This document shows, one piece after another, positions 4,674-22,353 of a stretch of DNA of 64,000 nt; the first letter of the stretch is position 1; each line of letters starts with the position of its first letter. The notes below the pieces were generated by a model that searched no databases, was not told the origin of the DNA, and was given only the letters and a program-made list of their open reading frames with translations. The translations under genes were made by a program, and so were the position numbers. Source of the stretch: Luteitalea pratensis. GTDB taxonomy: Bacteria; Acidobacteriota; Vicinamibacteria; Vicinamibacterales; Vicinamibacteraceae. The stretch spans positions 434,001 through 498,000 of the forward strand of contig NZ_CP015136.1 in assembly GCF_001618865.1 (NCBI RefSeq). The letters run 5' to 3'.

Positions 4674-4863
4674 GTCGGCCTTGGGCGCTGGGCCTTCGAC
4701 GTTCTCACGTAGCCGTCGACCTTGATCGACGGATCTCTCCGAGCGATCTGTCACGCACGGTGTCCGTCGGGCAAGCCCGACGGCTACACTCACGAGGCCT
4801 TGTCGCCTTTCAAGCCCTGAGACCTGAGACCTGAGACCTGAGACCTGAGACCTGAGACCTGTC
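4674..4863. repeat. Repeat-filled gap: two palindromes and a heptamer array
   Basis: A GTAG-type palindrome lies at 4709-4732 (stem CCGTCGA/TCGACGG). A second, with 9-bp perfect arms CCGTCGGGC and GCCCGACGG around AA, lies at 4762-4787 and ends in CTAC. At 4816-4861 the heptamer CCTGAGA is repeated about six times. The gap separates converging genes; no coding sequence is seen. Confidence 0.8.
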
Positions 4864-5499
4864 TTACCCGTTCACCACCGTCGTGACGAACTCCGCCTCC
4901 GGCACCGCGCCGAGGATGTCGGCGCTTTCGTTGATCACGGTCTTGGGGACGCCGGAGACGCGGAAGCGTCGGACGAGATCCGGGTACTCCACGGCGGAAA
5001 TCGCGGCGGTGATGACGTGATCGCTCTCGATCGCAAGCTGCCATCCCAGGCGGACCGCCCGGGGACAGTGGGGTCAAGTCGGCGTCGAGAAGATCTGCAG
5101 GTTGCGTGCTTCGGTGAGTGTCGCTACGAGCGAACGCGACTCTTCACTCAGCCCGGAGTCACCAGACGACGCGAGGACGATGCCCTGGAGCAGCGAGACG
5201 AGCTCGTAGCCGTCCGGCGCGCCGTAGAAGCGGAGGCCGCGATCGCGATCGCCGATGATCGCGAGGCCCGGCGCGGCGATGATGCCGTACAACTCGACAT
5301 CGGCCTTGTCGAGCACCATGTTCTTTTCCTCGAGCGTGACCAGCGGGTTCGCCCGAGTCAGGTCTTCGAGGATCCGTGTGGTCGTGGCGCATGTCTCGCA
5401 GCCGAACGCCTGCACGAACAGGACGAGCCGCACCGGGTTCGTCATGCACGCCAACCGCTCGGTCAACGCCTTCATCTCGTCGTCGCTGAAATAGCTCAC
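4864..5499 (-). CDS. Selenoprotein candidate: two-domain thioredoxin-fold disulfide oxidoreductase with UxxC motif
   Basis: Read through an in-frame TGA (5076-5074), this frame gives a 211-residue protein with the two-thioredoxin-fold plan of glutaredoxin-like protein disulfide oxidoreductases (PDO). The first fold carries CETC (Cys34, Cys37). The second reads IFSTPT-U-PHCPRAVRLG, so TGA falls exactly where the catalytic Cys of CPxC is expected (position 142, resolving Cys145). The frame stays open and family-like for 69 more codons (VEYPDLVRRFRVSGVPKTV, with the cis-Pro), ending in TAA. A hairpin with a GGUC loop follows the TGA. Start is GTG at 5499, with GAGG just upstream. The alternative is a nonsense mutation, but downstream conservation and the hairpin argue for selenocysteine. 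Role: thiol-disulfide exchange, probably cytoplasmic (no signal peptide). Confidence 0.82.
5041..5068 (-). promoter_or_regulatory. SECIS-like hairpin immediately after the in-frame TGA
   Basis: Counting from the base after UGA, bases 6-33 can fold into an 11-bp stem (three G-U pairs) with one bulged C and the apical loop GGUCC. The GGUC begins 18 bases after UGA. The E. coli fdhF SECIS, as I recall it, also has a stem with a single bulged base and a GGUC loop at nearly this distance, which is what SelB recognises. The fold was made by eye, not computed. Confidence 0.65.
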
Positions 5500-5741
5500 G
5501 CCTCGATGGTACGCCGTCGGCACACCACGCGTCGGCGCAGTGGTGGCGGCCTTGGAAAGCCTGACGCGGTTCCTCGACCTTCGGTGCCCGTCGAGCGCGC
5601 GCGACGGCTGCACACCGGAATCCCGACTCCCGACTCCCGACTCCCGAGTTCGACGTGGGTGATGCACGTGGTGCGCTATCGTTCCAGATGCCGATGAGCA
5701 CCTCACCGCTGCGCCATGGCCGGAGCGCCAGGAAAACGGCC
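5500..5741. repeat. Gap with CGACTCC heptamer array
   Basis: The divergent gap holds a short tandem array of the heptamer CGACTCC at about 5621-5647 and no convincing gene. The promoters of the flanking genes must lie here, but no strong -35/-10 pair is evident. Confidence 0.6.
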
Positions 5742-20646: not shown

Positions 20647-20670
20647 CATGTGGGGACCTGTCCCCACATG
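20647..20670. promoter_or_regulatory. 11-bp-arm perfect palindrome overlapping a start codon
   Basis: Arms CATGTGGGGAC (20647-20657) and GTCCCCACATG (20660-20670) are perfectly complementary around CT. The right arm ends in the ATG of the downstream reductase (20668). As DNA it could be an operator; as RNA it would bury the start codon in a strong hairpin. No better ribosome-binding site is seen. Confidence 0.6.
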
Positions 20671-22353
20671 CCCACTCCAGTCCTTCTTGCCGTTGACGAC
20701 GATCCCGCGGTGCGCGCGGCGCTCGAACGCGACCTGCGCCAGCACTACGACGATGACGACATCCCTGTGGACCGTCAGTACGAGGTCATGGCCACCGGTT
20801 CGGGGACGGCGGCGATCGACCTGATCGGCCGCCTGCAGGGGCGCCGGCAACCGATTGCGCTGGTCCTCTCGGATGAGCGCATGCCGGGGATGAGCGGTGT
20901 CGACCTGCTCACGAAGGTCCGCGAGATCTCGCCAGACACCAAGCGAGTCCTGCTCACCGCCTACGCCGACACCGACGTGGCGATCCGCGGCGTGAACCGG
21001 GCGCGACTGGATCTGTACCTCACCAAGCCCTGGAACCCGACCGAACTTTTCTCGCCGATCGACGATCTCCTGGCCGTCTGGCGCGCCGAGTTCCGCGCCG
21101 AGAGCCACCTCACCGAACTGTTCGGTGATCGTTGGTCGAAACAGTGCTACGAACTGCGAGAGTTCCTCTCGCGTAACCGGGTGCCCTTCCACTACCACGA
21201 CACGGCCACCGCCGAAGGCCAGGAAGCCCTGCGGACCATGGCGGGCAACACGATGCCGCCGCTGCCGTTCGTGGTGACCGAGGACGGCCAGCGGCTCGAG
21301 CATCCGACGACGACGGACCTGGCCCGGCACGTGCACTTGCAGACGCGCGCCGAGTTCGAGCGGTACCACCTCGTGGTGGTGGGCGCCGGTCCTGCCGGCC
21401 TGACGTCGAGCGTCTACGGCGCATCCGAAGGCCTGAAGACGTTGCTGCTCGATCGCGATGCGCCTGGCGGGCAGGCGGGTCTCAGCGCCCGCATCGAGAA
21501 TTACCTCGGATTTCCGGAAGGCCTCTCGGGGCGTGATCTTGCCAATCGAGCGGTGACGCAGGCGCGCCGGTTCAAGGTCGAGATCGTGAGTCCGCAGGCG
21601 GTGACCGCCCTGGACGTCGACAACGAGTACAAGGTCCTGACCTTCGCCGATGGCAGCAAGGTCCAGGCCGACACGGTCGTCCTCGCGATGGGCGTGCAGT
21701 GGCGCAAGCTCTCCGGCGTCGACGACCTCGATCGGTTCACAGGGGCCGGTGTCTACTACGGCGCCTCGATGGCCGAGGCGCGCACCTGCCAGGACGAGAC
21801 GGTGCACATCGTCGGCGGTGCGAACTCCGCGGGCCAGGCGGCGCTCAACTTCGCTGAGTACGCCCACAAGGTCGTGATGCTCGTGCGTGGGCCGGACCTG
21901 GCCGCCTCGATGTCCGAATACCTGATCCGGAACATCGAGGCGCACGACAAGATCGAGGTGTCGACCAACACCTGCGTGGTCGGCGCCGATGGCGACGACC
22001 GCCTCCGCTGCCTCGAACTCGCGTCACCAAGCGGCGAGGGCCGGCGCAAGGTGGAGGCGACCTCCCTCTACGTGATGATCGGCGCGGCCCCCGATACGGA
22101 GTGGCTCGGCGACGTCGTTGCGCGCGATGCTCATGGCTACATCCGCACGGGTCCGGACCTGCCGCGCATCGACGGGACGACACGCGTCAAGGGCTGGCCT
22201 CGTTCCAGGGAGCCCTGGCTGCTCGAGACGTGCGTGCCCGGCGTGTTTGCGGCCGGTGACGTCCGCTGCGGTTCGGTGAAGCGGGTGGCGTCGGGTGTGG
22301 GTGAGGGGGCCGTGGCCATCCAGTTCGTGCACCAGTACCTCGCGGGGAAGTGA
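20668..22353 (+). CDS. Fused response regulator - glutaredoxin-like - FAD/NAD(P) reductase
   Basis: A 561-residue three-domain protein. Residues 1-130 are a receiver with phospho-acceptor Asp69 in LSDERMPG and the conserved Lys in LYLTKPW. About 150-225 is a glutaredoxin-like fold (LTELFGDRWSKQCYELREFL ... LPFVVTEDGQRL). From about 235 comes a thioredoxin-reductase-type flavoprotein (VVVGAGPAGLTSSVYGASEG, APGGQAG, IVGGANSAGQAALNFA, GVFAAGDVR). The CxxC of true thioredoxin reductases is replaced (GVYYGASMAEA), so it cannot act as a standard one. Family relatives carry a cyclic-nucleotide domain in place of the receiver. It is followed 1 bp later by a histidine kinase, its likely phosphodonor. 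Confidence 0.9.
   Translation: MPTPVLLAVDDDPAVRAALERDLRQHYDDDDIPVDRQYEVMATGSGTAAIDLIGRLQGRRQPIALVLSDERMPGMSGVDLLTKVREISPDTKRVLLTAYADTDVAIRGVNRARLDLYLTKPWNPTELFSPIDDLLAVWRAEFRAESHLTELFGDRWSKQCYELREFLSRNRVPFHYHDTATAEGQEALRTMAGNTMPPLPFVVTEDGQRLEHPTTTDLARHVHLQTRAEFERYHLVVVGAGPAGLTSSVYGASEGLKTLLLDRDAPGGQAGLSARIENYLGFPEGLSGRDLANRAVTQARRFKVEIVSPQAVTALDVDNEYKVLTFADGSKVQADTVVLAMGVQWRKLSGVDDLDRFTGAGVYYGASMAEARTCQDETVHIVGGANSAGQAALNFAEYAHKVVMLVRGPDLAASMSEYLIRNIEAHDKIEVSTNTCVVGADGDDRLRCLELASPSGEGRRKVEATSLYVMIGAAPDTEWLGDVVARDAHGYIRTGPDLPRIDGTTRVKGWPRSREPWLLETCVPGVFAAGDVRCGSVKRVASGVGEGAVAIQFVHQYLAGK

Follow-up and report, generated by a model that had tools for sequence, protein, structure and literature searches.

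A predicted selenocysteine-containing protein disulfide oxidoreductase with two thioredoxin folds in Luteitalea pratensis

The window analysed here (the whole stretch of 64,000 nucleotides from the Luteitalea pratensis genome) carries on its minus strand a coding sequence (4864-5499) for a predicted selenocysteine (Sec)-containing protein disulfide oxidoreductase (PDO) of 211 residues. The frame opens with a GTG at 5499, meets an in-frame TGA at codon 142 (5074-5076), and continues for 69 sense codons to a TAA at 4866-4864; a plain list of open reading frames stops it at the TGA. The initial annotation had placed this TGA at the first Cys of a second CxxC motif, with a normal CETC motif in the first fold and 69 codons from the TGA to the TAA, and both the coordinates and the translation agree. 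In the second half, the motif reads TPT-U-PHCP, where U is the predicted Sec (U-P-H-C, 5065-5076), and the first half contains C-E-T-C (5389-5400, read from the sequence), both on the minus strand.

The GTG and the residues that follow it are kept in two congeners, G317 and G362. Directly before the GTG, on the same strand, is the hexamer TACCAT (5506-5511), a possible -10 element, and TANNNT-like hexamers are similarly placed in G317, G362 and G373. From its position, our guess would be that the transcript has a leaderless start. A perfect tandem array of the 7-base unit CCTGAGA (6.6 copies, 4816-4861) begins two bases past the stop codon, and G317 and G362 have similar runs 3′ of the gene.

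Upstream and divergent from the PDO gene is a DUF2461 gene, and 1.4 kb off is a multihaem cytochrome gene, the head of a respiratory operon that we take to be alternative complex III. A convergent sulfatase gene lies downstream. In 10 of the 19 loci covered by gene clustering, a multihaem cytochrome gene is found no more than ~4 kb from the PDO gene. No conserved reductase or peroxiredoxin was recognised beside the PDO gene in the gene clusters of these 19 loci, part of which was scanned against family libraries. One thioredoxin reductase scored above cut-off in the genome (398.5 bits; G000:C1:4632184-4633083). The window also encodes, at 20650-22353 on the plus strand, a 567-residue protein that joins a response-regulator receiver domain with a flavoprotein part resembling thioredoxin reductase.

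The surroundings of the gene vary among relatives. In G317 (L096:9502-10470) and G362 (L097), an ArsS radical SAM gene and a dehydrogenase-like ORF separate the PDO gene from the respiratory operon, and the ArsS gene of G317 matches TIGR04167, '(seleno)protein ArsS', with 417 bits; by gene clustering, both genes are absent at the corresponding place in the window. In five genomes, the PDO gene is immediately preceded by a small ORF of the same orientation (G183, L105:8679-9173; G077; G253; G261; G293). The ORF of G183 contains a CARC motif, and the one small upstream ORF tested had no NCBIfam or Pfam match.

The translated protein belongs to NCBIfam TIGR02187 (PDO_seleno_TRX), with 209.8 bits against a cut-off of 185 and residues 6-209 aligned to positions 2-207 of the 209 in the model, and it is the sole match to this model in its genome. 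AlphaFold2 predicted a stand-alone protein of two thioredoxin folds (mean pLDDT 96.5). The best PDB matches by sequence were PDOs of Aquifex and Pyrococcus, and Foldseek gave TM scores (normalised to the query, as throughout) of 0.94 to the P. furiosus PDO (1a8l) and 0.92 to that of A. aeolicus (2ayt). Archaeal and Aquifex PDOs as a group (1a8l, 1j08, 2hls, 2ayt and 2ywm) share the whole-length fold (TM 0.91-0.94) at 28-32% identity, and three of them (2ywm, 2ayt and 1j08) have Cys where the Luteitalea protein has Sec.

The tandem thioredoxin folds also resemble the N-terminal domain of AhpF (5h29, 6il7 and 1zyn; TM 0.82-0.89). In AhpF, this domain is joined to a part resembling thioredoxin reductase, retains the second motif only, and relays electrons for reduction. 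The Luteitalea PDO differs in that it stands alone and retains the first-fold CxxC. Its scores stayed below the cut-offs of the AhpF models (40.7 of 502.9 bits for TIGR03140 and 64.4 of 687.65 for TIGR03143).

Across 396 genomes of the phylum, 72 matches were found in 71 genomes, and across 193 genomes of the class, 115 matches in 112 genomes. Together these made 162 distinct loci, the Luteitalea gene among them, all of which were extracted and aligned. The column of residue 142 held TGA in 108 homologues, TGC in 31 and TGT in 23, giving 54 Cys codons in all, and Cys occupied the +3 position in 162 of 162. The initial annotation had proposed that homologues be aligned at this site and had counted unrelated residues there against its reading; only Cys or TGA is found. 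Inside the matches (72 rows for the phylum and 115 for the class) there were either no stops or one TGA, and never a TAA or TAG. Many of the 90 later loci show TGAs elsewhere in the extracted frames, which were bounded by TAA or TAG only, while the class matches themselves contain no second stop; judged by column, we took these TGAs to be flank before the start or normal ends.

The Sec form dominates the PDO family in the class Vicinamibacteria, where 100 of the 115 matches have exactly one TGA and 15 have none. Two draft assemblies, G440 and G468, hold Sec and Cys copies together. Four congeners were found (G317, G362, G540 and G541), each with a single in-frame TGA at the column of residue 142, which speaks against a sequencing error. 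In three congener pairs, dN/dS was 0.13, 0.14 and 0.08 after the TGA, compared with 0.12, 0.15 and 0.12 before it. The codons past the TGA are thus under purifying selection (dN/dS 0.08-0.14).

We built a tree of 71 sequences with the Cys/Sec column masked and one short sequence (L095) left out. On this tree Cys and Sec must have been exchanged nine times, and in eight cases well-supported branches leave no other option; with shuffled labels, about 23 changes are needed. One genus pair is split, with Cys in G323 and Sec in G331. The Cys gene of G323 still shows the downstream hairpin described below (z -2.27 against synonymous shuffles), as expected after a recent loss of Sec. An otherwise Sec-containing clade of 21 holds two Cys forms, G261 (nested) and G253 (basal, on a long branch); selA had no match in the G261 genome and no more than a weak one in that of G253. 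Overall, 28 of the 29 genomes that carry a TGA form have a strong selA match (E 1e-90 or better), compared to 18 of the 42 that carry Cys forms (Fisher p 2e-6, for genomes that are related and not independent). The exception, G333, has a TGA form but a weak selA match (4.4e-5) in an assembly that is 97% complete.

The Luteitalea genome is a single contig of 7.48 Mb. The initial annotation had made its proposal depend on the genes for Sec insertion, and selA, selB, selC and selD are all present. The tRNA-Sec scored 65.7 bits (cut-off 47) and has the anticodon tca; a second, weaker tRNA match above cut-off is a tRNA-Ser. The matches to selA (492.4 bits), selB (326 bits, or 347.2 including a C-terminal piece) and selD (324.7 bits) all exceed curated cut-offs. 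The selD gene (G000:C1:7469558-7470478, L051, minus strand) has an early in-frame TGA of its own, in the context CAG-U-ASKL, so that SelD is probably itself a selenoprotein, a known situation. An apparent inverted repeat follows the selD TGA.

Folded to minimum energy, the 42 bases that follow the UGA give a hairpin of 13 pairs starting at the sixth base, a putative bacterial SECIS element (5038-5068, minus strand). Counted from the UGA, GGUC occupies positions +18 to +21 (5056-5053). The initial annotation had described a hairpin with a single bulged base and a GGUC apical loop, starting six bases after the UGA with the loop 18 bases downstream, a position it likened to that in E. coli fdhF. 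The fold bears out the start and the place of GGUC. The bulge has two bases (AU, on the 3′ side), and only GUC of the loop is unpaired, or GGUCC with the last G-C pair open.

Whether this hairpin stands out depends on the shuffle used. Against dinucleotide shuffles it is ordinary (z -1.36; 24 of 200 shuffles fold as well). Against synonymous shuffles that preserve the protein, which take their codons mainly from the usage of the gene in question, it gave z -3.0 (p 0.007) in the first run and z -2.95 (p 0.013) in the run on 162 loci. These two runs covered the first 30 TGA and 42 Cys genes, and then all 162. The mean z was -1.59 for TGA genes (n=108) and -0.42 for Cys genes (n=54), with p at or below 0.05 in 52 of 108 and 6 of 54 genes, respectively; the G+C content of the tested stretch is higher in the TGA genes (0.73 compared to 0.63). 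Averaged by family, z was -1.48 for 22 TGA families and -0.44 for 23 Cys families (p 3e-4), and the Cys families are also slightly negative (p 0.01). The signal was absent in the TGA families f93 (nine genes), f15, f21 and f94 (one gene each), with mean z from 0.05 to 1.43. These families might have a SECIS of another shape, or the model may be misplaced.

The outcome also depends on the register in which the stem is read. Of the 108 TGA genes, 61 have all six pairs of the upper stem in one or other of two registers (3.7 expected), as do two of the 54 Cys genes (1.1 expected); as the registers were set after inspecting the first 72 sequences, this count reuses those 72 together with the 90 later ones. 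A further register (34) gave a mean of 4.23 of 6 pairs in the TGA genes, compared to 3.93 for the chosen one. No fixed-register covariation was seen in 30 TGA genes (27 distinct), where 67.3% of cells were paired compared with 67.1% in shuffles; the 42 Cys genes likewise gave no support, and RNAalifold returned no pairs on the TGA genes. We read this lack of fixed-register covariation as slippage between the two stem registers.

The two redox motifs differ in how well they are conserved. While the second motif is invariant in 162 of 162 homologues, the first-fold CxxC is not: where that region was readable, 74 of 107 Sec forms retain it and 33 lack it, as against 45 and seven of 52 Cys forms (L095, L282 and L277 have no readable first-fold region and were left out of these counts). 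The 33 Sec forms without it belong to family f3 (22), f11 (seven), f12 (three) and f7 (one), and have, for example, GGSESG or DPESEQ in its place. With the first CxxC lost and the UxxC kept, the C-terminal Sec site must work without a first-fold CxxC in those lineages.

The sequence features by which bacterial selenoproteins are recognised are found here: a TGA aligned with Cys, the genes selA, selB, selC and selD, and a downstream hairpin, the last being dependent on shuffle and register. We put the probability that the gene encodes a Sec-containing PDO at about 0.93, and judge from the sequence that Sec is almost certainly what would be inserted at UGA codon 142. A nonsense mutation or a sequencing error, in a gene that is decaying or mis-sequenced, would account for a plain ORF list ending the frame at the TGA. 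It has next to no probability given the same TGA in 107 other homologues, the four congeners among them, the purifying selection on the codons past it, and 72 and 115 rows of matches in which the only stop ever seen is one TGA. Readthrough of the UGA by tRNA-Trp, tRNA-Cys or another near-cognate tRNA, independent of the Sec machinery, could draw on the missing fixed-register covariation and on the four TGA families that lack a hairpin signal. We nevertheless regard it as very improbable, as the codon is Cys wherever it is not TGA (54 of 54), TGA forms accompany selA, and the genome has the full Sec set along with a selD that has its own early TGA.

Two other readings accept that Sec can be inserted and differ over what follows. 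The UGA might serve mainly as a selenium switch, with a 141-residue product as the working protein at low selenium; the part before the TGA does span the first thioredoxin fold with its CETC. However, this product would lack a motif in the 33 of 107 readable TGA forms that have lost the first CxxC, and constraint past the TGA is about equal to that before it, so we consider the switch quite improbable. Instead of a reductase fed by thioredoxin reductase, the protein might be an oxidase/isomerase, or else a selenoenzyme of the peroxidase type. Its closest solved relatives, PDOs and AhpF N-terminal domains, are electron relays for reduction, which makes this reading unlikely, albeit with points in its favour: no partner gene was recognised adjoining the PDO gene, and a study cited in the available text of PMC7278568 has a title that describes the Sulfolobus PDO as multifunctional.

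As a Sec-containing PDO, the protein would be made when SelB, carrying Sec-tRNA-Sec, reads the UGA at codon 142, aided by the hairpin that starts six bases downstream. Sec would take the place of the first Cys in the C-terminal CxxC, and would be the attacking residue of the second site. We envisage a cytosolic disulfide reductase, in which an NADPH-dependent thioredoxin reductase would reduce the selenenylsulfide of the PDO; the more reactive selenolate could then reduce disulfides in proteins, or peroxiredoxins, and CETC in the first fold would provide a second site or a relay. The direction of the reaction, the electron donor and the substrates are borrowed from archaeal PDOs, and by that analogy they are somewhat more probable than otherwise. 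According to the available text of PMC7278568, archaeal PDO receives electrons from NTR and passes them on to peroxiredoxin.

The initial annotation had called such a protein little-described. This is correct as far as experiment goes, as we found no experimental study of a Sec member in a search with most subscription journals outside its scope. As a predicted selenoprotein, though, the family is on record in reviews and a 2006 survey, and the NCBI model is named for Sec. The portions seen of PMC9312934 (2022) and PMC13188914 (2026) list a 'Homolog of AhpF N-terminal domain (Grx-like domain protein)', TIGR02187, with a UxxC motif, as a predicted selenoprotein (example ABB15282.1), and PMC9312934 cites Kryukov and Gladyshev 2004 for it. 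The 2006 survey (PMC1794560), in the part available, reports the family in two organisms, Carboxydothermus and Symbiobacterium, which it files under Firmicutes and Actinobacteria, with no tie of the family to Acidobacteria in that part or in the portions seen of the reviews. The word AhpF is absent from PMC1088965 and PMC5029168. The selenoproteins of TIGR02187 have two thioredoxin folds and Sec in UxxC, as does the Luteitalea PDO. With the family already in these partly seen reviews and the model named PDO_seleno_TRX, the Luteitalea gene adds to a known selenoprotein family. Our search for literature on selenoproteins in Luteitalea, Vicinamibacter and Acidobacteria returned almost nothing, with a paper on nano-selenium in paddy soil for Luteitalea and none for Vicinamibacter, and we found no mention in print of the prevalence of Sec in Vicinamibacteria or of the loss of the first motif, again with most subscription journals outside the scope and some sources seen in part.

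The gene thus adds a well-supported selenoprotein for a bacterial group on which we found scarcely any selenoprotein literature. The 108 Sec and 54 Cys genes, with at least eight exchanges on the tree of 71, form a large natural series within one family in which the reasons for keeping or losing Sec can be sought, and in lineages that lack the first CxxC the Sec site stands by itself, which makes its role directly testable. We tentatively suggest, as a possibility somewhat short of even odds, that the PDO of Vicinamibacteria is now chiefly a selenoenzyme, cut down to a single Sec site in families f3, f11 and f12. If so, a two-site PDO would have been turned into a single-site reductant like the AhpF N-terminal domain, and the Luteitalea gene would represent the state before the loss.
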